Of a stretch of 64,000 nucleotides of DNA, positions 5,690 to 47,893 are shown one piece after another (within the stretch, counting starts at the first letter, position 1; each line of letters begins with the position of its first letter). The translations under genes and the position numbers were made by a program. The notes under the pieces are model-generated. The model saw only the letters and a program-made list of their open reading frames with translations, was not told where the DNA came from and did not search any database. This DNA is from Porphyra umbilicalis (lineage: Eukaryota; Rhodophyta; Bangiophyceae; Bangiales; Bangiaceae). The stretch spans positions 124,001-188,000 of the forward strand of contig KV918858.1 in NCBI GenBank assembly GCA_002049455.2, read 5' to 3'.

Positions 5690-6137
5690 GGCACAGGCTG
5701 TTATTCATACTGGGGGTGTTATACGGGGAGTGTGTTAGAGGCTGATAAAGGGAGGGGGCCGCGATTCAATCGACGCCACCTCCGACGCCGCCGCCAACGT
5801 TCCGGTCAGGGTCGACCCCAAAGCCACTGACGTTGACGCCGGGACCCCGCGGTGGCGTCTGCGTGGGCGCTCCTCCACCTGTTCGGCGCCCACGCGTGGC
5901 CGTCGTCGCGCTTCCTCTTCCGCGCCGCGCGGCTCGTGCGCTACGGCGCGACCGCGGCGGCCAAGAACCGGCCGCCCCGCGCCGCCGGCGGTGCGGACGA
6001 GGACCCGCCCGCGGCGGCAGGCGACGTCGAGGCAGCGGCGGTGGCGGCGGGCATGGCCAGCCTCCTCGCTGAGGTGGTCCTCCCCGGCGCGTGCGTGAGC
6101 CTCTAACAGCCCCAGTAAGAACCTTTATCAGCCTCTA
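5690..6137. repeat. GTTAC/AACAGCC-type short repeats around a GC-rich insert
   Basis: Both edges carry the same words in opposite orientation: GGCTGTTATTC, GGGGGTGTTA and TTAGAGGCTGATAAAGG near 5697-5755, and GCCTCTAACAGCCCCAG plus TTTATCAGCCTCTA near 6094-6137. Between them, 5760-6100 is GC-rich with an open plus frame (5852-6106, no ATG start) that ends over a GTGAGC donor-like site. It could be a captured exon, but I recognise no family. Confidence 0.4.
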
Positions 6138-6765
6138 TGGTGCGTGTCCCAAAAATGAGACATCGCGGTTTTTTCATTTTTTCTCGGCCCACTGGCCTTC
6201 TGCAACGGTCCGATAATGTAATGTGACCCACTCGGTCCCACTGGGCTTCCAGAACACCCCCTGACAGTGTTAGCAGAGGCGGCACATCCTGACGTGTCAT
6301 GGGGGAAAGTGTCATTCCTTGTAACTTCGACAGGTGACAATCACGCGGCCCAATCAAATGCACAGATACTAGAGGAGGCCTGTGCTGACAATTTGTGCAC
6401 GAAGAAAAGGGCACCAGTTTACCAAAAAAAACGTGAAAAAGACCCCCATGTAGCCCCCTGTGAGGAAAACACGATTTGGGACACCCCTCATCGAAGCTCC
6501 AGTTAGCACATGAGCTTTGGTGTTGCAAACCTTTAACCCCAAGAACCTGAAAAAGACTGGCTCCAAGATCGGGGCTATCTGAGAGGTCCACAGAACAGGG
6601 CCCACAGGCGGGTATTAAGGAGTTGTCAGCCAAGCACGCGTCGGGAGAGGCTCTTTCCATGGAGGCCAGTCGAGAATTTTCTCGTACCCCACGCCGCCTG
6701 CGCCCGTGCAGTGATGTGTCAGTCCTTCAGAAAACGCGCATGTCTCATTTTTGGGACACGCACCA
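6138..6765 (-). mobile_element. 628-bp terminal-inverted-repeat element, copy 1 (TA target duplication)
   Basis: The element begins TGGTGCGTGTCCCAAAAA and ends with the exact complement of that sequence; the inverted repeats extend about 26 bases. TA dinucleotides flank both ends (6136-6137 and 6766-6767), as expected for Tc1/mariner-type target duplication. A second copy of identical length lies inverted at 21704-22331. On the minus strand an open frame starts at ATG 6660, 105 bases inside the end, and runs through the far repeat to 6103. Its product (about 185 residues, starting MERASPDACLADNSLIPAC) matches no family I know. No transposase domain is seen, so the element is probably non-autonomous. 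Confidence 0.8.
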
Positions 6766-7485
6766 TAACAGCCCTAATTTAGTAACAGCCTTGATCAGCC
6801 TCTAACAGCCCCAGTCACAGCCTTGATCAGCCTTTAATTAAAGAGGGCGCAAGCGCAGCGAACAGCCTCGGCTCGTGCCACCTCAGAAAGATGGTCCGAA
6901 GGAATGTATAAAAAAAAGCATATCATACAGAAGCAACGACGCAAACGATCCCCTTCAGGAGCGCCCCTTTGCCTTACAAACACAGCGCATCCCGGCCCTG
7001 TTGGCTCGCCGCAACCCCCACTCCTTTCGCTCTGCCGCAAACATCGGCTGCGGCCGCGCCGCCAGCCACGCCGGGCGGCGGCGTCGCCACCCGCCCCATC
7101 GCCTGGGGCCGTCCTCCCCCCCAGCGACACCCCCCCCTCCCCTCGACGCAGAGGCCGCGCGAATGGCAACAGGAGATAACGGCGGGCGGTGAGGATTGTG
7201 TCCAGTACAGCCGATGACTCGGCTGAACAGCCCGAGTAACAGCCCCAGTAACAGCCCCAGTAACAGCCTTTATCAGCCTCTAACAGGCTGTTACTGGAGG
7301 TGTTACTCGGGGTGTTACCGGGCTGTTACTGGGGCTGTTATGATACTGGGGGTGTTACCGGGCTCAGAGGTGTGATTATAATCATTCCTGGGCTCGGTTA
7401 AAATGATTATAATCAACCCCTTGATTTTAAATCGTATGGGGCGATTTTTATTGATTATAATCATTGTCCATGATTATAATCATTG
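6766..7485. repeat. AACAGCC/GGTGTTAC satellites and TGATTATAATCA repeats
   Basis: Directly beyond the 628-bp element come AACAGCC words (6767-6835). A unique stretch follows at about 6840-7205, then dense AACAGCCCCAGT and inverted GGTGTTACTCGGG units at about 7215-7372 that can fold on themselves. At 7372-7485 the palindrome TGATTATAATCA occurs several times. The same two satellite types flank the second 628-bp element near 21.6-22.6 kb. Confidence 0.6.
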
Positions 7486-9524
7486 GGCGCCTTTACGACA
7501 GAGCAGAATTACGCATAAGTAAAATAAAAGTCCAATCAAGTCTACATTAGACGTCAGAAGCCAACTTATTAAGCATCCCTTGTAAAGCTACGAGTGTGAC
7601 TTCGGCAGGGTTGCAGGCTGTGTTCCTGCCGAAGAAAGACAGTGCCGACACCGCCGCCGCTGAGCAGCAACTGATGGTGAGAAATAATCGTGGAGCTGAA
7701 GCGACATGTTATTCTGGATAGTGAGACTCAGGTCTGGCCTGAGAGCAAACCCTGCAACGTCGATCCCATCTTCCAATTGGGGAATCTAGAGGCGCAACGT
7801 GTGGCATGCTGAATGGAGAGCCCATTCTGGGGGCCCTGTTTGGGGCCAGACGCGATGTAGTTGGGCATCGAGCTGTCTGAAACGAGCCACGAGACGGTCT
7901 GAATGGGGTCGTCATTGCTGGGTTATGTGTAGCCCCATTCTGGTAGTTCAAATCCGAATGAAAGCGAAGGAGCGCTAAGGGATCTCGATCAGCGCTTAAT
8001 GAAACGAAACCACCGAAAAGTTGTCCGGAAAGTGTGCCCAACAGTCGCGGTGAGATTGCCACGTCCTCGTCAAGCGCCAGATATGCCGCTAATAATCGTC
8101 GAAACCGATGACAACGTCGAAGAAAGAGGCATTCAAAGGGACGAACGGGCCGACACCTGGCACGGCCACGACATAAATCGGGCACCTCATTGGAACTAGG
8201 CCCCTGGGAAGAATCCGATCTCCTCGTGCGCAGTCCTGTCGATTGTAAACGGATTGGATCGGGCCACAGAAGAAGCGGTAAGCGGCTGGGCGGGGAAACT
8301 GGAGAGCGGGCGTCGCCACTGGCACGATCCGCATTGTGCGGAAGGCTCGTCGCGAGATATCAACAGGTCAGATGTCGTTGCCGTTGACACTCTCGGGAGC
8401 TGTTTTGAAACCGCCCAGTTTGGAGGGAAGTGCAGTCATTGGCTGATCCAGTGAATCGAACCAATCTGTCGTCCTGGATGGCATCACTTTTCTCAAAAGC
8501 TGCACTTTCGGTGACTAGTCGACGCCACAAACTGTCGGTTTCGGTGCCACTTGCACAATGCTCGGTTGAAGCTGGGTCGCGTCATCGGATGAGATCGTGC
8601 GTGAGTGGGCCACTGGAGGGGTGCGAAGCGCTCTGCGCATTGGGTGGACACGGCGACGCCTCAGAACGGATGGCCAGCCGGTCACGTGACCAACTGGTCA
8701 TCCTTTTGACGTTGGAACGGCCGCCGCGCCAACGCCCTCGCTGGCTCAGGAGGCGTGACGGCATTCAGCGCCGCGACTCGTCAGGGGCCGCCTCGCGGCC
8801 CCTCAGCCGTCCGACGTGTGCCGCGCCCGGCGTGTCAGTCTGACGCGTGCCGCTCGACCCCCCAGCCGTCCAACGTGTGTGGCGTAGGGGCGTATGATTC
8901 CCGCCTGTAAACGGGTCTGCGTTGTCAGGCTGCCGTGGCGGGTCTCTCCGGCTCGTCCCACCCGCTCGTTCATATTTTATCGGGCGGGCACGGCGCCTCT
9001 GTGGACGGGCTGCACGTGGGACGACGAGACGCATGCGCGCTGGTCGGTTCTCAACCGTGACCAGTTTCTGGGAGCCAGGTCTCCTGCGGGGCGGGCCAGG
9101 CTGACGCAGTCCCCCCACACTCGCTCAACCGCCGTCGGACGGCAGGTGGGATTGGGCGGGCGGCGGGGACGCGTCTCCTCTGTGTGCGCAATCGCGCCGG
9201 TGTGGTGGGACGTCTGTGCAGCGCGCGCGCTCCGGCTGCCATCCCGCCCACCCCTCCACCGCGCCCACCCCTCCCCCCCTCTGTAACCGCGCTCATGACG
9301 CGTGTGAAGGGCGCCAACGACACGCGACGACGCCGAGCGCAGCGGCAGCGCAACGGTCGCGCTGCCACCCCGCCCTCTCCGCCTTGCACCTGCGCGGGGC
9401 CGTGTGACCACGGCACCACGGACGCCCCCCCCCCCCCCCCCCACCTGCTGAACGGTGCGCTGCACCCTGCCGCCCTTCCCGCCTCGGGTCAACGAGCTTC
9501 GCTGGTCCCAGGGAGGACGGCTCC
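7486..9524. other. Gene-free interval before the Harbinger-like block
   Basis: No protein is recognised on either strand. The sequence turns from AT-rich (7.5-8.4 kb) to GC-rich (after 8.6 kb). A perfect palindrome GGTCACGTGACC sits at about 8680, and GAATGGGGTCG-type words near 7890-7935 resemble those at 20.9-21.0 kb. If a transposon end lies here I could not identify it. Confidence 0.4.
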
Positions 9525-11838
9525 ATGTACGCGCCTCCCCCCCCACCGCCCCGCGCTTTCGGGCCCTCCCCTCCCCGCAATCACTCCCGCCCCCCTCCTG
9601 CCGGCCGGGGTGTTGGCCGGCCGCTTAATCAAGGCGGCCGGCCTCCGGCACCACACCGGCTGCCCTGCCCTCCTCATCCCCGCCGCCTCGGACCTGACGC
9701 TGACCGCGCCGATCCTGACGACCGACGTGTTCGTCGACGCGTCGACGACGACGGGCGCTATCACCCTCAAGCCGGCGGCGACTATCCCCGTCGGTGGAGC
9801 CCGCCTCGTCGAGCAGCGAGCCCGCCTCGCGGGCCCCCTTGGCGCAGCCCCCCTCGACGCCCGGCGGGCCCCCCACAGGCCCCCCCCCCCCCCCGTGGTG
9901 GAGCCCGCAGCGAGGACAAACGGGCGCCCCACGGGGCCCTCGACGGTGCAGCCCTCCGCGACGACTGGCGGGTCCCGGACACGGATCCCCTCGCTGGAGC
10001 CCCCCGCGACGACCGGCGGGCCCGTTTGAGGACCCAAGGCGCTGGCCGCCGGAGCCACCGGTCGACGATCACCGGCGTTCGTACGGCGTTTGGCCGCCGC
10101 CACCCCCGTCCTCGTTCACCCACGGGTACGCGAGCGCGGGCGAGCCGTGGCCAACCGGTGGGTACGACCCCACCGGTAGCTGGTCTTCCGCGTGGCGGCC
10201 ACCGCCGTACCCGGTGTGCCACCGTCCGGCGCTCTGGAGCGGCGAGTCACCCGCCAAGCCACACGGCGGGCTCGCGTACCAGTGGGCGTTGACGACGGGG
10301 CAGCCGCAGAGCACGCCTTTGCCGTTGATGTTGTTGCCCGCGCCGCCGCAGCCCTCGCTGCAGCCGACGCCGCAGGAGCCAGCGCGCCAACCTCTGTACG
10401 TGGTCGGGAGCCACCCAGCCCCGCAGCCGACGCCGCAGCCGACGCCGCAGGAGGCAGCTCGCCACCCTCTGTACGTGGTAGGCGGCCACCAAGCCCCGCC
10501 CCCCTCGACGTTTGTGCTGGTGCCTGCTCCCCCCCAGCCTCCCCAGCAGGCCCCTCTCTACCTGACGTCGCCGTTCCAGCAGTGAACTACAACCTCCCCA
10601 AGTCCATGGGCTCCAGCCTGGGATGGACGGACGAGGACCGCGTGCCGCTGTGTAGGGCCTACCTGGAGGTGAGCGAGGACCCTGTGAGCGCCACTGGTCG
10701 CTCCAAGGACCAGCTGTGGGCGGCTGTGCACGAGAAGTGGACGGACCTGATGACCAAGAAGGGGCCCCTGCGCGTCAAGCGCAACGTCAGTGCGTTGGAG
10801 AAGCAGTTCAAGAAGATCCGGAAGGGGGTGAGCTCGTTTACTTCTCACTACCTGGCCGTCAAAAACATGCAAACTACCGGGAACCTGACGGAGGAGGACA
10901 TTATCAGCGGTGCGGTCGCGCGGTACTGCTCGCTGGACATCTACGAGTCCATCCGCAGCGACCGGGAGAAGGACAAGCGCAAGGGCAAGACGGCCAAACG
11001 CAAAGCCAAACTGGCGCATTGCAAGTGGGTGGGGTGCTGGCGCGTTTTGCGCACATCTGACAAGTTCAGCGGCGCGGCCAACACGGCGGACGACGCGAGT
11101 GTGGACGTGGGCGACTCTTCAGACGAGGACGGCGAGAGCGGGAGCACGAGCAGCCCGAACTCGCGCAACAAGGGGTATCAGAGCCGCCCGGGCGGCATCA
11201 AGGCCGCCAAGCTGATGCGGTCGGAGGACGCTGGAATGGAAAAGCAGGTCAAGGCGAGCACGGCGGCGGTGGACAAGTTGACCGTTGCGCAGCAAGAGCG
11301 CACTGCGCTTTGCTTTTTTGACTCTCCCTCGATGCGTCACACGCCCGAGGCGGCACAGTACCGGCAGGCTGTTATGCTCAAGATGATGCAAGCTGCTGGC
11401 CTGGCGGCGCCCCCTGCACCGGCTCCCACGCCTGCGCCGCCGGCGCGCAGTGCTGCCAAGAAGATCCATGTTGTGGAAGTTGGCGACGGCGTGGCCGCCA
11501 TGGAAGTCACCACTCTCGCGGCTGATGCGTCGTCGTCGGCGCCGCCGGCGGCCGGCTCTGCCGCCGGAGCTAACGCGCCGCCGGGGGAGGACCCACCGGC
11601 GGCGCGTGTGGCAGCAGATACTGCTGCTGCAACGGCTCTGGCGGCGGGGGCGAAGTCGCCGGCGGCGCCGCCGGCGCGCGGCAGCAGGGGGGGCGACAAC
11701 CAGCGTGGCCGCAAGTCGCAGGCCGCGAAGCAGCGCGCCGCTTCTGCGGCTCTCAGCAAGCAGCTGGATACAACCCGCGGCCTTGACCAAAGTAGCGAGT
11801 CTGACACGACGACGACCACCACCACGGACACTGAGTAG
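9525..11838 (+). CDS. Myb/SANT-like DNA-binding protein of a PIF/Harbinger transposon
   Basis: The conserved part is one uninterrupted frame ending at TAG 11838, with its first in-frame ATG at 10606. It opens SMGSSLGWTDEDRVPLCRAY and includes a tryptophan/helix pattern (WTDEDR, LWAAVHEKWTDLM, ALEKQFKKIRKGVSSF), a basic segment (EKDKRKGKTAKRKAK), an acidic stretch and a Pro/Ala tail. This is the trihelix/Myb-like partner that, in plant Harbinger elements, binds subterminal DNA and helps the transposase. Upstream, a proline-rich region with SPPRRPAGP-like peptide repeats runs from ATG 9525. It changes frame at a 15-C run (9880-9894) and again near a C run at about 10500-10535, each by one missing base. 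I take 9525 as the likely start and 10606 as the fallback. Confidence 0.65.
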
Positions 11839-11897
11839 CGTAGCGACTGTGTATTGCTTTGTGCTTAGTGACATGTAGCAGCAGCTCGGTGACAACG

Positions 11898-11942
11898 AAA
11901 GGTTTTTTTTTATCCCTCTTCGGGGTTTTTTTTTTCCTACAC
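11898..11942 (+). other. Shared 3'-end motif, copy downstream of the Myb-like gene
   Basis: Sixty bases after the Myb stop comes AAAGG, nine T, a CCC/GGG pair around a short spacer, ten T, then CCTACAC. The transposase gene has nearly the same arrangement after its own stop. It may act in 3'-end formation, or simply mark common descent. Confidence 0.6.
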
Positions 11943-11999
11943 TTATGTCTTTCTCGGTGCACACAGACGACCTTGCGGCCCAACCGCGGGCAGCAACAG

Positions 12000-12610
12000 C
12001 CGCGGGCAAGGGGACCTCGGCGCCAGCGCCGGGGCGACGGCACGCGGCGACAGCCGCGAGCGAGCAAACGCCAGCGCAAGCGCGGGGGCAACCGCGGGAA
12101 CGAAAAGCCGCGGGCGAGGGGACCGCGGCGCCAGCGCAGTGGCAACCGCGGGCAGCAACAGCCGCGGGCGAGGGGACCGCGGCGCCAGCGCCGGGGCGAC
12201 GGCACGCGGCGACAGCCGCGAGCGCGCAGACGGCGGCGCAAGCGCGGGGGCAACCGCGGGCACCAACAGCCGCGGGCGAGGGGACCGCGGCGCCAGCGCC
12301 GGGGCGACGGCACACGGCGACAGCCGCGAGCGAGCAAACGCCAGCGCAAACGCGGGGGCAACCGCGGGCACGAAAAGCCGCGGGCGAGGGGACCGCGGCG
12401 CCAGCGCAGAGGCAACCGCGGGCAGCAACAGCCGTTGGCGAGGGGACCGCGGCGCCAGCGGCGGGGCGACGGCACGCGGCGACAGCCGCGAGCGCGCAGA
12501 CGGCGGCGCAAGCGCGGGGGCAACCGCGGGCACCAACAGCCGCGGGCGAGGGGACCGCGGCGCTAGCCCGCGGGCGACGGCGGGGGGCAACAGGCGGGCA
12601 GCGGTAGACG
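12000..12610. repeat. 54-bp minisatellite with 108-bp higher-order units
   Basis: The word GGGGACCGCGGCGCCAGCG recurs (with small changes) at 12010, 12118, 12172, 12280, 12388, 12442 and 12550, so spacings are 108, 54, 108, 108, 54 and 108. Because 54 is a multiple of three, all six frames stay open and give repetitive Ala/Arg/Pro or Arg/Gly peptides. These are read as artefacts, although one plus frame has an ATG (11945). Confidence 0.85.
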
Positions 12611-13329
12611 CGGGCGAGCGATGCTGCCCGGTGTGGGCCGCCCGTTCGCACGTCGCCGCAGGCCCGAGTTCGGAGCCGCAAGCGAACGCGGGCGAGCGGT
12701 GAGCGCCGAGTACGTTTCATCGAATGTTCTCGGCCAGCATGACAGTGGGACAATAAAATCAAAACAGTTCTGCCGAAATCGGTGTTGTTTTTGGAGTATG
12801 TGGGCATGTTCAAATTATAGGTCGCGTGACTGACTGTACAGCCCCCGTAAGACCCCGTCTCGCGTTCTCAACTTTTGTGGCGCAAATACATGCACATGTC
12901 TTGCTGTCCGTGCTTCGTATCTCAACGCCACCGCTCAAATGGAACGAGAGGGCGCGGGGGATGTTCGCTTTCCCGCATGGGGATCAGCCCCGCGCGAAGG
13001 CCGCCCCTCCCACAACGATCTGCCGCACCGCCAGCGGCGGGGGTCGTGGGCCGGCACTGGCGGCGCGGCGCGCCCGCTGCGCCGACCGCTGCCGGGCGGC
13101 CAGTGCGGCGCGAGCGCGGCGCAGCAGAGCTTTCTACCCTCGCCGCCGCTGCTGCGGCCGCGGCGCGGCGTTATCGCGCCCGGTGACGCAACGAACACGC
13201 TGGCGGCGGCGACACGGGCAGCGCGCCGCCGACGCTGTTGGCGGCGAAGCGCGGCGGGGACGACGGCGGCGGGCGGTCGGTGCCGTGTGCGGCCGACGGC
13301 GACGGGAAGGGCCGCGGGCTGATTGGGGG

Positions 13330-14195
13330 GGGGGGGTGGCGGGGAACGGGGGGGGGGGGTCTCTGCCACCTCCGCTGCCGCACCGTGACGCAGCGCGCGC
13401 CCCTGCGCGTCGGCACTGGCGGCCGCGGCGGCACGGCGGGGGGGTTGGCGGGGGGGGGGGGGGGGGGTCTTTGCCACCGCCGCTGCCGCATCGTGGCGCG
13501 GCGCCCGCCCCTGCGCGTCGGCAATGGCGGCCGCGGCGGCACGGCGGGGGGGTTGGCGGAGGGGGGGGGGGGAAGATTCTTTGCCACCGCCGCTGCCGCA
13601 TCGTGGCGCGGCGCCCGCGCGCTGGCAATGGCGGCCGCGGCGGCACGGCGGGGGGGTTGGCGGGGGGGGTGGGGGGGGGTCTCTGCCACCGCCGCTGCCG
13701 CACCGTGGCGCAGCGCGCGCCCCTGCGCGTCGGCACTGGCGGCCGCGGCGGCACGGCGGGGGGGTTGGCGGAGGGGGGGGGGGGGGGGTCTTTGCCACCG
13801 CCGCTGCCGCACCGTGGCGCAGCGCGCGCCCCTGCGCGTCGGCACTGGCGGCCGCGGCGGCACGGCGGGGGGGTTGGCGGGGGGGGGGGGGGGGGGATTC
13901 TTTGCCACCGCCGCTGCCGCATCGTGGCGCCGCGCCCGCGCGCTGGCAATGGCGGCCGCGGCGGCACGGCGGGGGGGTTGGCGGAGGGGGGGGGGGGGGG
14001 TCTTTGCCACCGCCGCTGCCGCACCGTGGCGCGGCGCCCGCGCGCTGGCAATGGCGGCCGCGGCGGCACGGCGGGGGGGTTGGCGGGGGGGGGGGGGGGG
14101 GTCTCTGCCACCGCCGCTGCCGCATCGTGGCATGGCGCCCGCCCCTGCGCGTCGGCAATGGCGGCCGCGGCGGCACGGGCCGCGCGTCGCCAACG
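13330..14195. repeat. Eight-copy 101-110-bp GC minisatellite with long G runs
   Basis: Units are anchored by CTBTGCCACC at 13361, 13469, 13579, 13681, 13790, 13900, 14002 and 14103. Each unit starts with a run of 9-18 G, continues through GCCGCTGCCGCA, and ends GGCGGCCGCGGCGGCACGGCGG. Two unit subtypes differ by an internal segment (CCCCTGCGCGTCGGCA present or absent). The flanks 12640-13330 and 14200-14640 are similar GC-rich sequence without a recognisable gene. Confidence 0.85.
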
Positions 14196-14644
14196 CTTTT
14201 GGCGGGGGGGCGCGGCGGCCGCAAGAGCGGCGGGTCCCTGCGGCCATACTGCCGTTGGCGGCGGTGGCGTGGGCGCCGGCGGCGGCGGCGCAAGCGGCGG
14301 TGGCGTGCCCGTGGCCACTCCACGGCGTCTCGTGCCGCAGTCCCCGCACCCCACACGGCCGCCGCCCGTCGGCCGCCGCCGCCACCGCCGCCGCCGCGGG
14401 GCTGCACGCGCTGGTGGCTGCCGCCGACGGCGCCGACGGCACGACGCGCCGGCGGTGGTTCTCCCTTTGCCTCCCGTGGGTGGCGACGCGGGTGCGAGGG
14501 CCGCGGCTTCTCCGGATGTTTCTTTTTTTTTTGCACCTACGTCCCACGTCTTACTTGGACTCCATCCCACTCGAGCACCACGTCTCCCAAAGAAGTAAAT
14601 GAATGTAGTAAACTCAATGCAAACATGTTCCCACAACGCAAAAG

Positions 14645-15058
14645 CTACGCCCGCTCGCCACGGATGCGGCGGGCAAGCTGAATGTCCTTGGTCATGACAG
14701 TCACACGCTTTCCGTGGATGGCGCACAGTTGAGCGTCCTGGAAGAGGCCCACCAGGTAGGCCTCGGACGCCTCCTGAAGCGCCAGTACAGCTGACGCCGA
14801 AAAGCGAGGAGAGTTGGTGTACTCCTGCGCAATCTCGCGCACCAGCCGCTGGAAGGGGAGCTTGCTGATAAGCAGCTCCCCCGACCGCTGGAATTTGCGG
14901 ATGTCCCGCAGGGCGACCGTCCCAGGCCGGTAACGGCGCTTGACTGCGGCCTTGCCACCGGCCTTGGACTTGGTCGCCCGCCTGGCGGCGGCCCTGGCCA
15001 GAGAAGCCGGGGCCTTGCCGCCAGTGGACCGCCGCGCCGTCTGCTTCGTCCGCGCCAT
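14645..15058 (-). CDS. Divergent histone H3 variant (K9R, no K27, K56R, K79T)
   Basis: The 137-codon gene starts at ATG 15058 and has no intron. The fold region is clearly H3: [73 protein letters not shown], ending ARRIRGERA. The tail starts [16 protein letters not shown], so K4, S10 and K14 are kept while K9 is arginine. After residue 16 the tail diverges ([18 protein letters not shown]), and the AARKS motif around K27 reads AARRAT. K18 and K23 are lost, K56 is arginine and K79 is threonine. The protein is one residue longer than canonical H3. It lacks the long loop 1 and divergent tail of CENP-A, so a replacement-type H3 variant is more likely. No histone 3' stem-loop is seen. It sits between the two Harbinger-like genes. 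Confidence 0.9.
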
Positions 15059-15397
15059 GGCTGGCGGGGCGCAGGTGTGGTAGCCGCCACGGGTGGGGGA
15101 GGAGCGGGGGGGCAGGAGGAGGGGAGTTGAGGCGGGGTGAGGGGGGGGGCAGGTCCACGCCAGACAACAGTCAGCGCGGCCGGGCCAGGTCCCACCAACA
15201 GTAGAGGCTGGGGGCGCGGGGGGGGGGAAGGGGGGCAGGGTGCCAGGGGGGACAGGTCAACCCCAGAACACAGCCGGCGAGGCGGGGACAGGCCGCACCG
15301 CCAGTGGAGGTTGGCGGGGCGGGGATGGGGAAGGGGATGGGCAGAAGGGACGATGCTGCCGGATGACGCCGAGAGGAGATGGCTGGGATGGGCTCCT

Positions 15398-15404
15398 CTA
15401 TATA
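15398..15404 (-). promoter_or_regulatory. Possible TATA box of the H3 gene
   Basis: The minus strand reads TATATAG here, about 340 bases before the H3 ATG. The intervening 15060-15395 is GC-rich with no competing TATA-like word. That distance would imply a long 5' leader or a leader intron, so the assignment is tentative. Confidence 0.35.
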
Positions 15405-15799
15405 CCTGGAGTGGGTCTGCCTGGGGTGCCGTGGGTGACGGTCACGGCCACTGCCCGGCAGAGACCACCTGGGCAGCACCAGAAAGCCCTCCGCGACTCA
15501 GGTTGGATGCATCAGTGGGGACATTCCATCGCCTTTGTATTGGGCTCGCAGAGTCACCCGAATCCGCCGTCTCTATGACTGGTTTCAAGCGTGGATATGT
15601 ACACTTCTTCTCATCTTCGTGAGTTCGTGTTCAATAAAGTGCGGAATGTATTGCAAGAGAAAGGAATGCTTGTCCGAAGAACCGCGCCACCCGTACGCTG
15701 ACGCCCTACTCAATGCGGGATCGTTCACCACAGATCGCCCCATCTGATCGCCCCCCCAGGGAGCGATCTTCGGATGACAAACCGCCTCCCCCCCGCTCT

Positions 15800-16330
15800 G
15801 TGAGGGTCCCGCTGTCGCCGCCGTAGATCTCATTCGCAGCCATCCACTCGACGGCGTCATACAAACTGCGCGACAGCAACCAATGGGGTGTGCAGAATTG
15901 CTGTTAAACAACCACACGGTTCAGAGCTGTGCAGTGTCAGATGTATGCACGTGTTCTTGTTGGTTCTTCATAAGTGTACGTCGGGGACCGCGTGATTTTC
16001 TGTCGTTCGCCCTCTGTGGGCATTGAAACAGCGCCGCGACAACCAATGGAACGGCTTAGACATGTTCATTGAAATTGACGGGGGGCCAAGTCTTGCTATG
16101 TATGGTACATACCAGTGGTGTGGTTGGTTCTTGAAGTTGTGTAAGTAGTCACGTGAGCTGCTGGCGACCGTCAACTGTCGGACAAGAACTTTCGAGAGCC
16201 ACGATAACCAATGGGGTTACTGACAGTTGTTATTCATCAAACACGTGGTTGAAAGCCTTGCATCGATAATAGATACAGGTGTTTTGATTGGTCGTTGTCG
16301 TCATGTGAGGGATCGCCTGACCATCCACAC
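15800..16330. repeat. Degenerate ~164-bp tandem repeat with CCAAT words
   Basis: ACCAATGG recurs at 15879, 16042 and 16207, and TTGGTTCTT-like words at 15960, 16124 and 16288, giving a steady period of 163-165 bases over about three units. The units are AT-richer than their surroundings and have drifted strongly. The period is close to one nucleosome, and the CCAAT words lie upstream of the H3 gene. No gene is seen from 15405 to 16540. Confidence 0.6.
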
Positions 16331-16539
16331 GTTCGTGACTGGCGTATCTTCTTTGAGTGACGCCATGTCATTGGACTGTGTCATCGTCAGCACCTTATGT
16401 GGCAATGAATTGTTTGTGCGGGATTTTTGAGACGAGCGATAACGGCAGAAGCAAGTTTATTAATGCGGTCTATGGGCAGCGTGTCGAGCCACAAGATCTT
16501 GCGAAGCTCGCACGCGCAATCATCTTGCGGCTCTTCGCA

Positions 16540-16869
16540 CGAAAGCCTCCCCACCGCAGGCCGCCCTGCCCACGCTGCTGCTACCCGCAATCCTGCCCCG
16601 CCCGCGCTCCCGAGCCGCCACCGCCAGCAATCCCTGAAGCCTGGTCGCCTGGAGCCGCTCCGCCGCCGCGGCGCGGGCGCTGCGTACCCTCGCGCCGCCG
16701 CACGTGCGCTCGCCGCCAGCTGGACTCCGCAAGCGCAGTGGGCGGCGTCGCTGGCGGCCAAGTGCGCCATGTGCGGCGAAGGCGACGGCAGCAGCTGCGG
16801 CGGCGGCTGTGACGGCGGCAGCAGCGACGGCGGCAAAGGCGGCGGCGGCGGCGGCCGCGGCGGCGGGGG

Positions 16870-16900
<31 letters not shown>

Positions 16901-17012
16901 GGCGGCGGCGTCAGCGGTGGCGGGGGCGGCGGCGGCGGCGTCGGCGGTGGCGGGGGCGGCGGCGGCGACGGCGGCGGCCATGCCAGTGGTGGCGGCGGTG
17001 GCGGCGGGGGCA

Positions 17013-17043
<31 letters not shown>

Positions 17044-17135
17044 CGGGGGCAGCGGCGGCGGCGGCGGTGGCGGCAGGGGCGGCGTTGGCCGTGGCGGTGG
17101 TGGCAGCGGTGGCGGCGGGGGCAGCGGCGGGGGCA

Positions 17136-17167
<32 letters not shown>

Positions 17168-17222
17168 GGCGGCGGGGGCGGCGTTGGCCATGGCGTTGGT
17201 GGCAGCGGTGGCGGCGGGGGCA

Positions 17223-17253
<31 letters not shown>

Positions 17254-17345
17254 CGGGGGCAGCGGCGGCGGCGGCGGTGGCGGCAGGGGCGGCGTTGGCC
17301 GTGGCGGTGGTGGCAGCGGTGGCGGCGGGGGCAGCGGCGGGGGCA

Positions 17346-17377
<32 letters not shown>

Positions 17378-17444
17378 GGCGGCGGGGGCGGCGTTGGCCA
17401 TGGCGTTGGTGGCAGCGGTGGCGGCGGGGGCAGCGGCGGGGGCA

Positions 17445-17476
<32 letters not shown>

Positions 17477-17952
17477 GGGGGCGGCGTTGGCCGTGGCGGT
17501 GGTGGCAGCGGTGGCGGCGGGGGCAGCGGCGGGGGCAGCGGCGGCGGCGGCGGCGGCGGTGGCGGCGTAGGCAGCGGCGGCGGCGGCGGCGGCGGCGACG
17601 ACAGCGGCGGCCCGCTGCCGCTGCGTGCCACCTCCGTGCCGACCCCCTCGGTGGCTGCCGCTGTGCAGCCGTCGCCTGGCCTCCCGCCGCCGCACCTGCA
17701 CTCGCCGACAGCCTCGACGCCGCCCAAGCGCAGTGGGCGGCGTCGGTGGCGGTCAACGGCGGCGGAGGAAGCAGCTGTGGTGGCGGCTGCACCGGCGGCT
17801 GCGAAGGCGGCAGCGGCGACGGCGGCGGGGGCGGCGGTGGCGGTGCGGGCGGCGGCGGGGGCGGCGGCGATGGGGGCGGCGGCGAAGGTGGGGGCGGCGG
17901 CGGGGGCGGCGGCGGGGACGGGGGCGGCGGCGGGGGCGGCGGCGGCGGCGGG

Positions 17953-17983
<31 letters not shown>

Positions 17984-18210
17984 TTGGCGGTGGCGGCGGT
18001 GGCGGCGGCGGCGGCGGCGACCCGCCGTCGGGCGCTGCGCGGCCACCGGCGCGGGAGCCGCGAGCGCCAGCATGACCACGGGTTGCCACCGTGTGGAGGC
18101 CGCGGCGGGCCGGCGCGGGCGGCCCTCACGACGGCGACGACCGCGGCCGAGGCAGCCCGGGGGATCCCCCGCCGGACCCGTCGGCTAGTCACTCCGGGTT
18201 AGCGGCGCTG
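16540..18210. repeat. GGN trinucleotide satellite with 210-bp higher-order repeat
   Basis: From about 16850 to 18025 the plus strand is almost only GGC/GGT/GGG with AGC and GTT interruptions. GGCGTTGGCC marks a 210-bp higher-order unit (17081 to 17291, 17180 to 17390, next near 17483). The start (about 16725-16830) and a later block (about 17730-17850) share a diverged copy of the same lead-in (AGCGCAGTGGGCGGCGTC). All frames are open and read as poly-Gly, poly-Ala or poly-Pro; I treat none as a gene. Confidence 0.85.
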
Positions 18211-18246
18211 GGGGCCTCCCGCCATTCGAACGATCGTAGCAAAGGT

Positions 18247-18289
18247 GTGTAGGAAAAAAAACCCTGCCCAGCGGGAAAAAAAAACCTTT
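18247..18289 (-). other. Shared 3'-end motif, copy downstream of the transposase
   Basis: On the minus strand, about 30 bases after the transposase stop: AAAGG, nine T, CCC and GGG around a short spacer, eight T, CCTACAC. It matches the motif after the Myb-like gene (11898-11942) in order and spacing. Confidence 0.6.
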
Positions 18290-18318
18290 GTTTCTACTCT
18301 ACTACGCCCTACATCGCG

Positions 18319-19905
18319 TCACCCAATGTACGGGGCAAGCAGTTCGCCTCGGTCGCGATAAATGTCCGCGGTCAGGTCAGCTCGCAGGCGCTCGTTCTCC
18401 TGCACATTCTGCGTCTCAGCCCAAGCATCAAAAATGGCAGCCATGCCAGCGGCAGGCGGGTGGGCGACGGGATTAAGAGCAGGGGGCGCGTTGCCGACGG
18501 CGTCAATGTTATCCATTGCCGCAGCGACGCCGCTGACGCCACCGCCAGGTGCTGGAGCCCCGGCGGCAGCAATAACACCGCCGACGCCACCGGGACTGCC
18601 GCCGCCAGGTGCAACTGCCCCGGCGGCAGCAATGCCGCCAGCTGGTGTCCCACCGCTCTGTCCTTCCCCCCCATCTGACCCGCCGCCAGCATCGCCACCT
18701 ACGCCACAGTTAGTCCCACCATCACCCCCCACCGCACGTCGACGGCGACTCAAAAAGTTGCTACGTCGACTCTCCACACACATGTTATGCAGAATGCAAA
18801 TGGCCTTGTAGGTCGTCACTAGCTGCGACACAGAGCGGTAGCGCCCAGGGTGGAGCGCAACGTGAAAGCGCTTCATCAATACGCCAAACAGCCGCTCCAC
18901 GTCCTTTCGGATGGCCTCTTGGAGGCGGTTGAACGTCGTCTGCTCCTCGGTGGACGGCTTGGGGTGTGGCGACATCAGAAAAGCGTAGCGCGGGTAAATC
19001 CCGTCGACAAGGTAGTAGGGTAGCGTGCGGGTGCGGCCATTGATAGTAAAGGGCGTGCCGCGAGGCGGCCACCTGCCGCCAGTGACGTCCAGGTACAGCG
19101 GCGACTGCTGCATGACGTTGATGTCGTTCAGACTGCCGGGGGCCCCAACAAACAGGTGCCACACCCACAGGTCCTCGTCACACACAGCTTCTACGACGAT
19201 GCCCCGCTTGCCCTTGCGACTCTGGTACGCCCCCGCCATCCCCGTCGGGCACTGGTGCCACTCCCAGTGGCAACAGTCGAGGGAGCCCATGCACCCCGGC
19301 ATCCCGCGTTCCTTGTTGCGCTCCATAATGGTGTTGAGCTCGTCTTGGTTCGGTCGTCGCAGGTAGGTAGGTCCCCATCGCTTGACAATAAACTCCATCA
19401 GCAACTTGGTCGACTCGGCGATCACCGTCCGGGACAGGCGCACGTACTCGTCCGCTCGGTCGGCCGCCTCGCCGTAGGCGATCACTCGAAAGGCAGCCAC
19501 TACCTTCTGCAGAGGGTGCGCTTGCAGCTTGCCCGTCGCATTAATGCGTTGTTGGAAGAAAGGCTCGTCCTTAACAGCCAAATAGATACGCCGAAAGACG
19601 GCGCGGGGGACACGGAACCGCGTCTCAAAGTCCCGGTCATCGTAGATAGGGAGCACACCGCCAACACCGAAGTAGTCTCGCAAAATGGCGTGCACACCGG
19701 CCGCAAAGTCGCGGCGCTTGTTGCCACGGCGCCCCGCGGTGGAGCCACGATAAAGCCACCGTCGCGCGATGCGCTTGGCGCGCGCGCGTCGGCGCACCGC
19801 CATGAGCACATCGACGTGCGCCTGCACCACAGCAGCAACGTCCGCGCCGTCGTCCTCGGCCAGCAGGGCGGCGGTGGCCGAGACCTCCTCCTCCTGGACG
19901 TCCAT
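18319..19905 (-). CDS. PIF/Harbinger-type DDE transposase (HARBI1-like)
   Basis: Cut-and-paste transposase; in this superfamily it acts with the Myb-like partner. ATG 19905 starts MDVQEEEVSATAALL and the frame is unbroken for 528 residues. The catalytic triad is in place: D210 in GSLDCCHWEW, D261 in GSLNDINVM and E337 in RKDVERLFG. The plant-Harbinger signatures GMPGCMGSLDC, GAYQSRKGKRGIVVEAV, LPYYLVDGIYPRYAF and AICILHNMCVESRR are also present. An N-terminal helical region (about 1-130) precedes the nuclease core (about 205-385). The Ala/Gly/Pro-rich tail ends with a helix (about 485-520). With no stop, frameshift or lost catalytic residue, the gene looks recently active. Its 3' end points at the H3 gene and the Myb-like gene. 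Confidence 0.9.
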   Translation of the reverse strand: MDVQEEEVSATAALLAEDDGADVAAVVQAHVDVLMAVRRRARAKRIARRWLYRGSTAGRRGNKRRDFAAGVHAILRDYFGVGGVLPIYDDRDFETRFRVPRAVFRRIYLAVKDEPFFQQRINATGKLQAHPLQKVVAAFRVIAYGEAADRADEYVRLSRTVIAESTKLLMEFIVKRWGPTYLRRPNQDELNTIMERNKERGMPGCMGSLDCCHWEWHQCPTGMAGAYQSRKGKRGIVVEAVCDEDLWVWHLFVGAPGSLNDINVMQQSPLYLDVTGGRWPPRGTPFTINGRTRTLPYYLVDGIYPRYAFLMSPHPKPSTEEQTTFNRLQEAIRKDVERLFGVLMKRFHVALHPGRYRSVSQLVTTYKAICILHNMCVESRRSNFLSRRRRAVGGDGGTNCGVGGDAGGGSDGGEGQSGGTPAGGIAAAGAVAPGGGSPGGVGGVIAAAGAPAPGGGVSGVAAAMDNIDAVGNAPPALNPVAHPPAAGMAAIFDAWAETQNVQENERLRADLTADIYRDRGELLAPYIG

Positions 19906-21635
19906 ACGGAAAGCAGGGACGCACACCACCGGACCCCGTGGGGGGCGGGGTGGGAATGGGGAAGAACAGCAGGGGCGCCTGGTGCGACGTGGAAATGGAG
20001 GAGGGGGGAGGAGGGGGGACGAGCGGTGCGAGCAGCGCGCGTGCCCAGCGAGATCGAGGAGGGGGGGGGAGTGGGATGGAGCCCAGCCGTGAGAGCAGAG
20101 CGCGTGGCCGGCGCGATGGGGGAGGGGCCGCGTCGGCCGTGCTCACGGGTGTGGTGGGTGGACGAAAATCGGCGGCGGCGGGATGGGGGTGACGACGACG
20201 GTGGCAAGCAGCGGGCGGCCCGTGCCGTCCTCTGAATGGCGTGCCCGGCCGACCACTGCGGACAGCCACCCCAGCCCACCCCCCCACTGCAGATGCACGC
20301 CGAGATGCCCCGCCACCACCCCCCCCAGGCAGCGCTCGTGCGGGCGCCCCCGGCCACTGATGCACGGTGGCTGGGCGGCCACCCCCCTTCAAACGGTGCC
20401 GATCGCGGCCCCCGCCATCCAGGCGCGACCGTTCAGGCTGCAGGACCCCCTCAGGCTCCTGTCAGGGCGCCCCAATAGCTGTAGCACAGCGACCGGCCCA
20501 ATCTCGCCCCTCCACGCGGCGCTGTCGACGGCCCGCGCCGCCCTCGTGAAACGACCACCCTCCACGAGGGCTCCCAGAGAGGCCCTCCGCAGGCGCAGCT
20601 CACCTGGGTTGACAGCCCCTCCCCTCTCAGATTGCTCTGTGAGCGATGCGTGGGAGCCACGCAGGCGCAAAAAGATCCAACGCGCTTCCCTCTGTGCATG
20701 CCGTGACAAAATATCTGGCGAGAGCCGTGAACCCGCTTTCGAGAGGAGTGGTCCAGATCGACAATTTCTAGTTTCTCAATGACTGTGAAAAACCGGGGCT
20801 GATCGTGGACCCACACGTTGCTCGCTTAAGCGTGCTATCTTCTATACTATTTCGAATCGTTCGACCAATGAGAGAGCATAGAAGAATGGGGTCGGCTTCG
20901 GTCCGACCCCATTTCCGGTCGGGAATGGGGTCGGTCCGGCACGGGCCCCATTTCTGAAAGCAACATATGCGTTGTACTTACGTCATTTGCTTTGGGCGAA
21001 ATGATGCCTAAATGGGGTCGGAGACGTTGATGCGGGAGCGTTCCGGCCCCATTTCCTCAATAATGAGACACGTTTGCGCCACGTTGCGCCACGTTTCGCA
21101 AATATGACTTGGGGCCGACGTTGCAGGGTTTGCTCTGAGCGGTTGCTCGCGACGACGCTGCGGCTTTGGCCAAGCGTCCTCCTGCGCTCCAGTCGCTTCA
21201 CGGGCCACGAAAAACACATGGGAGGCCAACGTGAATCGACCACACCTGATAACCTCGCTCAGATGTACTATGTACGATTCTATGTGGCAATTGTGTACTG
21301 ATGCCATTGTAACCTTGGCTTTTTTTGCAGATGCCTGTCTTCATATGCATGTGGTGCTCTTCGACGCTCTGTCGCTTGGCTCAGACTCTTTCTTCACTCT
21401 TCCCTGCGCGCAGATGCATCAGACTGCTATGCTTGTTGCCAGTTCTGCCATCTGTGGAAGTGTACCGTGTGAGTGCAGCAGGGCATGTCCTTAGCAATGT
21501 TGACACTAACGACAGACGTGGACCTGCCAAACAGCCAGAGGAACGCTTGAATCTGTCAGTTGGCAGACCAACCAGCTGTCTCCATCTCCCAGTAGCCCCC
21601 CTCATGCAAGCCCAACTGTAAGTCCCCCTGCATGG
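19906..21635. other. Transposase 5' flank and gene-free interval
   Basis: No further gene is recognised. The first 700 bases are GC-rich and presumably hold the transposase promoter. At 20885-21055 GGGGTCGG and its complement CCGACCCC alternate, forming a cluster of short inverted repeats within AT-rich sequence; it could belong to an element end but I found no clear partner. 21.07-21.63 kb holds nothing recognisable. Confidence 0.4.
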
Positions 21636-21703
21636 CCATGTGATTTTAATCATCAGCCCCGTGATGTAAAATGATTATAATCATTATAATCATCATGATT
21701 ATA
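21636..21703. repeat. ATGATTATAATCAT-type palindromic repeats
   Basis: TGATTTTAATCA, ATGATTATAATCAT and variants fill this stretch directly against the left end of the second 628-bp element. The same words occur at 7372-7485. Confidence 0.6.
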
Positions 21704-22331
21704 TGGTGCGTGTCCCAAAAATGAGACATGCGCGTTTTCTGAAGGACTGACACATCACTGCACGGGCGCAGGCGGCGAGGGGTACGAGAAAATTCTCGAC
21801 TGGCCTCCATGGAAAGAGCCTCTCCCGACGCGTGCTTGGCTGACAACTCCTTAATACCCGCCTGTGGGCCCAGTTCTGTGGACCTCTCAGATAGCCCCGA
21901 TCTTGGAGCCAGTCTTTTTCAGGTTCTTGGGGTTAAAGGTTTGCAACGCCAAAGCTCATGTGCTAACTGGAGCTTCGATGAGGGGTGTCCCGAATCGTGT
22001 TTTCCTCACAGGGGGCTACATGGGGGTCTTTTTCACGTTTTTATTGGTAAGGTGGTGCCCTTTTCTTCGTGCACAAATTGTCAGCACATGCCTGCTCTAG
22101 TATCTGTGCATTTGATTGGGCCGCGTGATTGTCACCAGTCGAAGTTACAAGGAATGACACTTTCCCCCATGACACGTCAGGATGTGCCGCCTCTGCTAAC
22201 ACTGTCAGGGGCTGTTCTGGAAGCACAGTGGGACCGACTGAGTCACATTACATTATCGGACCGTTGCAGAAGGCCAGTTGGCCGAGAAAAAAAGAAAAAA
22301 CCGCGATGTCTCATTTTTGGGACACGCACCA
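21704..22331 (+). mobile_element. 628-bp terminal-inverted-repeat element, copy 2 (inverted relative to copy 1)
   Basis: It has the same ends as 6138-6765 (TGGTGCGTGTCCCAAAAA and its complement), TA on both sides (21702-21703 and 22332-22333) and exactly the same length. A plus-strand frame from ATG 21809 to 22342 encodes 177 residues and is the counterpart of the minus-strand frame of copy 1, also starting 105 bases inside the end. The two predicted proteins differ at a modest number of scattered positions. No known domain is seen. Confidence 0.8.
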
Positions 22332-22365
22332 TAATCAAATAAAAATCACCTGCCACCTGACCGGG

Positions 22366-22557
22366 CTGTTCCTGGAGATGCTACTGGGGGTGTTACCGGG
22401 CTGTTACTGGGGGTGTTACTGGGGGTGTTACTCGGGGTGTTACTCGGGGTGTTACCGAGCTGTTACTGGGGATGTTACGAGGCTGTAACTGGGGGTGTTA
22501 CTCGGGGTGTTACTCGGGGTGTTACTCGGGGTGTTACTCGGGGTGTTACTCGGGGTC
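22366..22557. repeat. 12-bp tandem repeat GGGGTGTTACTC
   Basis: The stretch 22490-22557 contains about six perfect 12-bp units, and 22380-22490 holds looser variants (GTTACCGGGCTGTTACTGG). It reads as repeated Leu-Gly-Val peptides in one frame, which I regard as an artefact. The same family occurs at 5.7-7.4 kb. The following 22558-22800 holds nothing recognised. Confidence 0.8.
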
Positions 22558-27713: not shown

Positions 27714-30700
27714 TCATTGAGGGAAGCCCGGAGGAGTCGGCGGCGCCGGCATGGGTGGCGGCGTCGGTGGCGGCGACGCCGTCAACGACCCGCCGCCGCC
27801 GCCGCCGTCGACCGGCGGCGGCGGCGGCGGTGTCGCCGCACCGAGCGCGAGCGGCGGCGGCATCGACGCCGCGGCGACGCCCTCTACCCGCGGGGGCGTC
27901 TCCCACGCGGAGCTCGGGGAGCGCAACGACGTGGCGCCCGGTGGTGTCCCCGCAGGGGACGCGCCCAGCGGCGTCCCGGACGGGGTGATAACCTGCGACG
28001 TCCCCGTAAAGGCCGACAGCGGGGGCGCGACGGGCACTTCGGCGGGCGGCGGGGGCGTCACCGCCACTGCGGGCGCCGGCGGGACCCCCACTAATGGCAC
28101 GGGCGGGGCCACTGGCGACACGGCCCCGTTGCCCGCGTCCCTGCCCGCAAACGCCTCCATCGCCGACGTGTCAGACGCCGCGTCGCTCGGCGCAATGACC
28201 GGCACGCCAAACGCGTCGACGCCGTTCGGGGCCGCCACCCCGTGCGACACGTCCGCGCTGGTCGGCACGCCAAACTCATTGCCGACGGGGATGGCCACCG
28301 CCGCCGCCCCGCCGCCGGCGCCGCGGGCGAGCGTCGACGTGCCGCTCTCGCTGCTGCCGCCGCCAAAAATGGTCGGGTCGTCGGCCACCACGCCAGGGAC
28401 AGACGCCGCGGGCACCCCCGCCACGCCCAGCTCGGCCACCCCCCCGTCCATGCCGAGGGCGGCCGCCGACGGGCGCGCGCGGGACTGCGTGTCGAGGTCG
28501 AGCCGGATATCCGTGCGCCCGTAAAAGTCGCGCTCGACCCAGTTAGCGACGGCGACCGCGCCTTGCTCCGACGCCCCGTCCCCGTATGACGTCACCGCCA
28601 CGTATGTGCACGCCGAGGCGACGAGGAGGAGGAAGACGATGCCACACAGGAGGCCAATCACCAAGAGGGCGTTGAGGACGACGCCTTGGAGCTCGTCGCC
28701 AAAGACGGGGAGGACGGTGTTGCAGTCGGCGCGGCGAGCACCAAACAGGCCGAGGCGGTCCGACGAGGCAACAACCGACACGTCGCCGACGGTGGCGGCG
28801 CTCGACAGGCTCCGAAAGTTGCGCCCATACAGTTCCGCGCCGGGGCCCTGGACGCCGTCGTTGAGCTGCTTGACGGGCGCCAGGGAGTAGGCCTCGAGGG
28901 TAGAACAGCCGTCCGCGCGCGCCATCAGCTGCTGGTCCATTGGCAGCGTCACGCTGTAGCAAAAGGAGGAGGCGCGGGTGAGCGGCCGCGCCGTCGAGCC
29001 GGCCCGGTGCGGCTGCGCCGTGCCGAGTGCCACCCGCGGGGCCGCCCGCAGCCGGTTGCCGGCGCTCAGTTCGTCAATGTCGACGGAGACGAGCTTGGAC
29101 GACTCGGAGCGCGAGTCCTCCCCAGGTCGAATGCCCGATAGGTACACATAGTCAAACGTCTCGGCGATGGAGATGACCTTGCGCTCCGCCCCGCGCCCGT
29201 ACACAGCGGGGCACCAGCCAAAGGCTGCACCGAGGTCACCCTTGAGGTACAACCCCTGCTCCGCGTTGCACATGACCGCGACGGTCAGAGAGGCGGCGAC
29301 GGCCGACGAGCCGGCCGACGACCCGAGCGTCTCGACCAAGTCCGACGACAGCTGCGTGTCCGCCACCGACCCCATCCGCAGGGTTTGGGTGAAGCCGCAT
29401 GACTTGTCCTTGGTCGTCACCGCGGTTACCTGCTGCCGGCGCAGCTCCATGAGGTCGAGCAGCAGCGTGTTGGCGTCCCCGAGACGCGGCAGCAGCCGCG
29501 AGCGCGTCGACCCGCCGGCACTCCGGCGGAGCGACAGTTCCACGAGGCGGTCGTAAAACTCGGTAACGACACCGCCGAGCTCCGCCGCCGACCGGCCGGT
29601 GGGCGACGCGCCATTGGAAAGGCGGGTGGAGAAAGCCTCAAGCGACTCCGAGTCGGGTGTCCGCTCAATGGCGTTGGTGGCAATCGCGACCAGGCGGTAC
29701 AGGGTGTTCTCGTCAGGCAGATGCTTCAGGTCCATCGCCGCAAAGGTCGCAGCGGCGGTCACCAGGTTCCGCGCAAACGCTGTTGTCGGGATGCTCAGCG
29801 CCGAGATCTGCACGACCCGGTCGACCATCTCCTGGACGGCCGACGACACCGCTTGCTCGTGCTCCTCGTCGGCGCCAGCCGCCATCGCAATGACCTCGCC
29901 CGATGACTCCTCGGCCGTGAGCGACTCGGTGAGGTACATGGCGTCGAGCAGGTAGGAACCGTCGTCGCCCGCCAGGTGCCGCGCCTGCAGGGTGCGGCTG
30001 TGGGCGGCCAGGGAGCGGGAGTGGTTGGCGTCCTCGCGGATGACCAGCGGCTGCGGCTGCTCCGCAAAGTCGAGCACCGACAGGCCCGACGCGGCAACCA
30101 GCCGCACCTGCACGCGGTACTCGCCCGGCCGCAGGACCCGGAAAGAGGCTTGCGGCGAGCCCGTACACCCGTCGACGCACACCTCCTTCCCGTCCGCGTC
30201 GATGAGGTAGAAAAAGAAGAGCACGTCGGCGGTGGCAAACGACGAGATGGCCGACACATGCCACTGCTTCTCCGTGGTGCCGACAAACTTGTCCAATGGC
30301 ACCAAGTACAGATGCGCCGCCTCCTCAACGACGAAGTCGAACAGCACCCGGTTGGGCTCCGTCGCGACCGCTGCCTCGCCCGACTCGGTCGAACTGCCAA
30401 AGAACTCGACCTGCAGCTGGTACGACGTGCGCGGCATCAGCGCGCCCGCCTGGAAGCCGAGCAAAGGACGCCGCACAAACGCATTGTCCTGCCCGGGGCT
30501 CCAATACCCCGGCCGCGACAGCAGCGAGCCCGGCATGCGCAACAGGTCCGCGTGGGGGGGCAACAGCGAAAACTCCCACGTCACGCCATCATCAGCTTGT
30601 GGCGACAAGATCAACTCGTCATGCGCCTTGATGGCAGTGGCGTCCACCGCATCCCCACGCGCGTTGCGGAACGCGACCGACGTGAAGGATGACACGGCCA

Positions 30701-47600: not shown

Positions 47601-47893
47601 TTCGTGTCCCAAATCATGCCGACTTCGTTGAGTTGGGCCTCGCGCTCCGGCTGCAGCTGCTGTTTCTTCTTCAGCTCCCGTTGTCGGGCCACCCACCGGC
47701 CGAGGACGCCGGCGGCCTTGGGCACACACGCGTGGCCTTCCCTCCTCCGCCACTCCACCAACTCTGCATAGCGCTCGGACCATTTGACGGCAGGGGTGGC
47801 CTTGGAAGTGTCTTCTTGCTCTTCCAGGTGCCCGTAGTCCCGGTCCCCGTCGCCGCCGCCGCCGCCAGGGGAGCCACGGGGAGCGCCAGACAT
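44694..47893 (-). CDS. Three-HA-domain protein with Gln- and Gly/His-rich tail (one homopolymer frame break)
   Basis: ATG 47893 starts MSGAPRGSPGGGGGDGDRDY. Three helicase-associated (HA) domains follow at residues 38-96, 102-160 and 166-224, each with W at the start, GHxxVP, LGxWVxxQR and a closing W (WSERYAELVEWRRREGHACV; QWEMRYSELVQWVTTHNHAC; DWNKQFNNLVNWKNLHGHTR). HA domains are predicted nucleic-acid-binding three-helix units that often accompany helicases; here there is no helicase. The rest is low complexity: poly-Gln/His (about 270-300), then Gly/His/Gln/Ser-rich and Pro/Ser-rich tracts, prion-like in character. At a seven-G run near 45370 the sensible frame shifts by one missing base: GEAPRPDPSRALDMARAGEY continues naturally and stops at 44694. 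Without that shift the frame ends at 45077 in nonsense. It may be a nuclear DNA- or RNA-binding regulator; this is inferred. Confidence 0.75.

Follow-up and report, generated by a model that had tools for sequence, protein, structure and literature searches.

Chromatin enzymes and DNA-binding anti-silencing factors are known as transposon cargo, and a core histone whose silencing lysines have been replaced differs from both. In this study, we analyzed a stretch of 64,000 nucleotides from the red alga Porphyra umbilicalis (the window; C98:124001-188000 of the genome assembly), in which a PIF/Harbinger-type transposon carries a full-length gene for histone H3, termed cargo H3 in the following, between its two convergent genes, one of them Myb-like and the other encoding a DDE transposase. 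In line with a red algal source, the assembly contains 12 phycobilisome-linker matches, four of them on contig C665, which resembles a plastid genome, and eight on seven other contigs. Literature searches, restricted to open-licence papers, revealed no core histone carried by a transposon. If the anti-silencing role considered below is true, the substrate of epigenetic silencing itself would be usable as a weapon, and a self-supplied nucleosome subunit that cannot be marked would represent a new escape route from silencing. One genome offers a natural experiment here, with dozens of cargo copies in two lineages alongside sisters that lack the H3.

According to the excerpts of the sources cited here, TET/JBP genes occur in eleven transposon lineages, Harbinger and Plavaka included (Kojima 2025, PMC12730594). 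As in our case, the fungal TET/JBP transposons are cut-and-paste elements of several superfamilies with a captured chromatin gene that putatively counters silencing; their cargo is a DNA-methylation enzyme, whereas here it is a histone substrate (PMC12730594). The HarbingerS/MuDR elements of Phytophthora carry a SET methyltransferase (Kojima and Jurka 2014, cited in PMC12730594) and thereby also combine a Harbinger-type element with a histone-modification gene, but their cargo is a histone methyltransferase, while the Porphyra element carries an H3 without the target lysines. In Arabidopsis, VANDAL transposons likewise encode an accessory protein, VANC, which counters silencing (PMC5735166; PMC10398659). 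VANC targets are often tandem repeats, and tandem arrays are also present in the H3 element; unlike the cargo H3, VANC is sequence-specific, causes a loss of DNA methylation, and is not a histone (PMC5735166). Bracovirus H4 and other single viral histones resemble the cargo H3 in that a mobile parasite possesses one host-derived core histone, for which entry into host nucleosomes is presumed or demonstrated; the bracovirus histone is, however, a viral H4 acting by an added tail, in contrast to a transposon H3 with changed methylation sites (PMC9145170). Giant EnSpm elements with accessory genes were described from red algae (Petroll et al. 2025, as cited in PMC12477816). Harbinger elements of Ectocarpus display two tail-to-tail genes and TNA target duplications, as found here, but histone cargo is unmentioned in the excerpt of that source (PMC12477816).

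Element Ends and Gene Content

Comparison of the window copy with ten other copies, one of them lacking the left end, revealed that similarity breaks off within a few bases of two constant points. All ten copies with both ends, the window copy among them, carry the 20-bp inverted repeat GAGCAAACCCTGCAACGTCG at these points, are bordered by a TNA target duplication identical on the left and right (TGA in five, TCA in three, TTA and TAA in one each), and differ in their flanks. The features of the window copy are as follows, with strands in brackets where one applies.

7740-7742: left target site duplication, TGA, 3 bp, identical to the right one
7743-21135: whole PIF/Harbinger-type transposon with histone H3 (13,393 bp), ends common to the copies and flanks differing
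7743-7762 (+): left terminal inverted repeat, 20 bp, perfect, from copy comparison
10606-11838 (+): Myb/SANT-like, NAM-associated protein gene, 410 aa, intact, with Pfam match
11898-11942 (+): shared 3' motif at the Myb gene, a small hairpin between two T-runs, with CCTACAC at the end
11981-12593: tandem array with 108/162/270-bp periods
13329-14178: tandem array with a period of about 108 bp
14645-15058 (-): cargo histone H3 gene, 137 aa, intact; K9R, K27R, K56R, K79T, with K4 and K14 kept
16773-18019: tandem array, GCG-type
18247-18289 (-): shared 3' motif at the transposase gene, inverted
18319-19905 (-): DDE transposase gene, 528 aa, intact, with Pfam match
21116-21135 (-): right terminal inverted repeat, 20 bp, from copy comparison
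21136-21138: right target site duplication, TGA, identical to the left one

A first-pass annotation, made from the letters of the window, had described a Myb-like gene and an intact DDE transposase gene as convergent, both ending in the same 3' motif, with the H3 gene and tandem arrays filling the space between, and all of this was borne out, including three arrays. It had also named the three genes correctly; its stretch, however, started at 9525 with an open reading frame (ORF, 9525-10292) that had no match in a Pfam scan, while the true ends are 7743 and 21135. Its suggestion that the H3 gene is carried by the element would have been contradicted by ends between this gene and either transposon gene. 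Instead, the ends are located outside all three genes, 2.9 kb beyond the Myb gene and 1.2 kb beyond the transposase gene, and the H3 gene is thus inside the element.

The transposase matched Plant_tran (PF04827), with E = 2e-60 and positions 2-202 of 205 covered, as well as DDE_Tnp_4 (E = 7.1e-16). This Harbinger-type DDE transposase, the terminal inverted repeats, the TNA duplication, and the tail-to-tail arrangement of two genes are features of PIF/Harbinger elements. For the Myb-like protein, the NAM-associated domain was detected above the cut-off of 27.7 (1.4e-6, 29.6 bits) and Myb_DNA-bind_4 below the cut-off of 27 (0.0054, 17.6 bits). The two copies of the 3' motif are 79-81% complementary. 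Altogether, the element is, practically beyond doubt, a PIF/Harbinger-type DNA transposon with a full-length H3 gene between its two convergent genes.

The nine other both-ended copies are 11.8 to 14.1 kb long; the C245 copy measured about 13,570 bp by two measurements, and 14,488 bp when an outer repeat is taken as the end. With up to two mismatches, the 20-bp terminal repeat was found at 170 places in the genome, versus none for the reversed control. A 632-bp inverted repeat (6136-6767 and 21702-22333) was considered as the element ends and rejected, since its arms have inverted ends of their own and lie beyond the ends that the copies have in common. These arms are two separate small elements of 97% identity and opposite orientation, and TA flanks each of them. 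A 12-bp minisatellite of the AACAGCCCCAGT type is also present on both sides of the transposon in opposite orientation (7226-7360 and 22362-22556).

Copies across the Genome and H3-Less Sisters

A translated genome search with the cargo H3 resulted in 79 matches, from which 46 full-length ones with at least 72% identity were kept and 33 partial or more divergent ones set aside. Without the three canonical host H3 genes (C17 twice, C540), this led to a set of 43 cargo H3 copies. Since 102 of 562 Myb and 82 of 1056 transposase candidates were scored, the neighbour counts are lower bounds. Within 8 kb, at least 35 of the 43 copies have a Myb gene downstream on the opposite strand, at least 29 a transposase gene upstream on the same strand, and at least 23 both; at least 41 have one or the other, the copies at C3:721247 and C168:41462 being those without either listed neighbour. 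Among the matches listed, none within 8 kb of the 43 copies breaks the order Myb>...<H3...<Tnp. A recurrence of H3 copies inside element ends, proposed in the first-pass annotation as a check, was also found: with 100 of the 170 repeat places listed, at least 21 of the 43 copies are enclosed by a facing pair of inverted repeats, 17 of them together with both genes, and the pair around the C33 copy spans 30 kb. H3 identity correlates with that of the Myb gene (rho 0.85, n = 35) and of the transposase gene (rho 0.90, n = 29), and the cargo H3 has evidently split into two lineages along with the element.

Based on Myb identity, the 104 Myb matches listed were split into a sister group (up to 64%, n = 55) and the H3 lineage (above 64%, n = 49). 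Among these matches, 40 of the 49 in the H3 lineage have an H3 match within 8 kb, versus none of the 55 sisters. In three sister copies that were read directly (C169, C231, and C38), the same convergent genes occur without an H3 between them, and tandem arrays are present there in two; the tail-to-tail gene pair was thus seen in the window copy and three H3-less sisters. The H3 gene may have entered the space between the two 3' ends in the cargo branch, or the sisters may have lost it, with gain being the simpler course.

The Cargo H3 Protein and Selection on Its Gene

With 137 aa compared to 136 aa of the host H3, the cargo H3 matched the Pfam Histone family (E = 5.9e-39), and its best sequence match in PDB was a histone H3 (1eqz chain C, 1.3e-54). 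Cargo and host H3 differ at 38 alignment positions. Position 9 is R in all 43 copies and position 27 in 42, the remaining copy having W; R56 and T79 were each found in 42 copies. Lysines K4, K14, and K122 are retained in 42 copies each and K115 in all 43. At positions that we take to be those of H3:H3' contact and chaperone residues, C110 is kept in 40 copies, H113 in 41, L126 in 42, and K115, R116, and D123 in 43, while the presumed chaperone-reading residues 87-90 are kept as S87 in 42, A88 in 41, V89 in 39, and L90 in 40. In fold, length, and contact residues, the cargo H3 corresponds to a nucleosomal H3 apart from R63S, and 37 of the 43 reading frames are intact. An assignment as CenH3 was rejected based on the ARTKQTAR tail of most copies and the lack of a loop 1 insertion.

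Between the window copy and C28 or C94, the H3 gene displays 13 synonymous changes and one nonsynonymous change, with a ratio of nonsynonymous to synonymous rates (dN/dS) of 0.03; in the same comparison, the ratio is 0.15 for the transposase and 0.18-0.19 for the Myb gene. Lineage A (window) and lineage B (C58) are separated by a dS of 0.69 and a dN of 0.049, and across lineages, dN/dS of the cargo H3 is about 0.03-0.07, pointing clearly to strong purifying selection between the lineages. Within lineages, decay was observed, with dN/dS of 0.33-0.79 (C168a, C306, C9, and C42a versus the window; C406 versus C58) and 1.5, from five changes, for C174. Based on selection between and decay within lineages, we read the H3 as a gene required by elements that still move.

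Putative Anti-Silencing Function and Alternatives

That a K9/K27-less H3 is kept in dozens of copies suggests a parasite with its own silencing-resistant packaging protein. Such an anti-silencing role is strengthened by the conserved K9R and K27R together with the strong purifying selection, and we lean towards it with slightly more confidence than doubt. The element would produce its own H3, which host chaperones would deposit, as expected from residues 87-90 and H3:H3' contacts being mostly unchanged. Nucleosomes with the cargo H3 could then not be methylated at K27 (by PRC2) or K9, and Polycomb-type silencing of repeats would be diluted or broken at the transposon copies. The simplest route would be dilution via newly made H3 at replication; guided deposition by the Myb-like protein would be a more speculative possibility.

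Regarding the silencing machinery, H3K27me3 in the red alga C. merolae covers 50% of repetitive elements and is linked to low expression, according to the excerpt of PMC5405695. In the Porphyra genome, a search with the CXC domain for E(z)-like genes resulted in 76 matches, all above the cut-off, a number far higher than we would expect; the open frames that contain them span 72 to 1,420 codons. The one gene read fully (C117:3700-7900) encodes CXC and SET domains and is most like EZH2 in PDB. None of the 76 lies within 12 kb of the listed matches for Plavaka transposase, Harbinger transposase, or Myb genes, and inspection by eye of the surroundings of one copy revealed a GATA-finger-like ORF and no transposase.

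Several observations weigh against an anti-silencing role. K18, K23, K36, K37, and K79 are lost as well (the placement of K36/K37 being alignment-dependent), and since these are sites of active and silent marks, the loss of lysines is not confined to repressive ones. R63S, present in 42 of the 43 copies, and L82P in the window copy might change the nucleosome. For K27R, in contrast to K27M, poisoning of PRC2 in trans is not known. A search for the Pre-SET domain (SUV39-type) was without a match, as was its control, and K9 methylation in this host is hypothetical. For nine of the 49 listed Myb matches in the H3 lineage, an H3 match is missing within 8 kb, and the H3-less sisters, with 55 Myb matches, have spread well, so that the H3 is dispensable for transposition as such. 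In addition, window copy and C28 are 0.96-0.97 identical in the H3 frame and 0.83-0.90 in the adjoining stretches, but in the leftmost 2 kb (7743-9743), where no gene was recognized, identity reaches 0.98-1.00 and exceeds that of the H3 frame. Pieces may thus have been exchanged among copies, which makes identity alone a weak argument; for these 2 kb, inter-copy exchange or an unrecognized constrained stretch are both possible.

Among the alternatives, the cargo H3 could serve transposition or the element DNA itself, e.g., in architecture, protection of excised DNA, or target choice, with the loss of lysines reflecting release from host regulation. The many lysines missing beyond K9 and K27 (K18, K23, K36, and K79), the mostly retained H3:H3' contacts, and a between-lineage selection stronger on H3 than on the transposase are in line with this, but R9 and R27 are near-invariant rather than drifting (43/43 and 42/43), and the sister elements spread without an H3, so that we consider such a role unlikely, though deserving of attention. 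Global poisoning of chromatin, by which the mutant H3 would weaken silencing genome-wide as in tumours with mutant histones, appears improbable. It would fit the 37 intact cargo frames compared with, in the loci read, three intact host H3 genes of the canonical type; the change is, however, K to R, not the K to M of the K27M effect, and a genome-wide effect would be costly to the host. More improbable still is a mere passenger, i.e., an H3 variant co-opted by the host without gain for the transposon: strong selection would be compatible with the host using some copies, but it acts between element lineages in which the transposase is conserved as well, and several copies decay within lineages in the usual transposon pattern. 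Finally, two related insertions flanking an ordinary host H3 gene, the weaker alternative of the first-pass annotation, have a negligible probability, because, although the window on its own could look so and the 3' motif of the other two genes was not seen by eye in the 165 bases past the H3 stop, the unit recurs tens of times with differing flanks in the copies read, common ends outside the three genes and target duplications were found in 10/10 copies, at least 41 of the 43 H3 copies are arranged alike, and the canonical host H3 genes are located elsewhere.

Host Histones and Other H3-Type Families

The three canonical host H3 genes are intact, possess K9 and K27, and are separate from the elements. 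On C17, the contig with two of them, a gene with an extended loop 1 (C17:290760-291179) probably encodes CenH3. A control search with the Histone family led to 84 matches, ten of which are outside the H3 list (two in C4, four in C361, two in C78, and one each in C214 and C364), several of them forming close divergent pairs; based on these ten, other core histones seem not to be similarly amplified.

A second H3-like family comprises nine loci and is characterized by an N-terminal extension, the lack of an ARTKQ tail, and an end that mostly reads RGPERV. Loci of this family include:

C1:385808
C150:105125
C61:179653
C2:451453
C12:464336

At five of the nine loci, a same-strand match to the Plavaka profile follows 3.2-3.8 kb downstream (four above the cut-off, C2 below), while the chance expectation is about 0.003 per locus (123 matches in 83.8 Mb). 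DNA surrounding the C1 copy is repeated at C390, C39, C61, C83, and C121, and the similarity of this Plavaka-linked unit extends to the edge of the query. C1 and C83 differ by a dS of 0.54 and a dN of 0.03, whereas C1 compared with C61, C39, and C390 revealed dN/dS of 0.5-0.9, as in decaying copies, and C61 has an internal stop. The second family is thus a likely candidate for Plavaka cargo. In the H3 tree, the Harbinger-borne group (100/100) is separate from the Plavaka-linked group (96/92), and a single origin of both was not rejected (approximately unbiased test, p-AU 0.176); ORPH_C240 was omitted from the second H3 tree. If at least two unrelated superfamilies, PIF/Harbinger and putatively Plavaka, each carry a K9/K27-less H3-type histone, with E(z)-like genes amplified to about 76 places, a fight between transposons and silencing via the histone substrate may be entertained tentatively, with less than even credence on our part.

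A further H3 family starting with MARVKQ (C137, C37, C268, and C281) has an altered tail and, in C268, C137, and C37, a C-terminal extension. Between C137 and C37, about 5.5 kb are shared at 94%; C281 has only the gene region in common, and C268 has two short stretches in addition to this region. Pfam recognized no transposase in the three neighbouring ORFs scanned for a carrier of this family.

Other ORFs of the window include a REJ-domain protein (27714-33962), a CDC45-like (36627-38276) and an adenylate-kinase-like protein (41582-42835), and, on the reverse strand, an ORF of 938 aa (45077-47893) with three stretches of helicase-associated (HA) domains.

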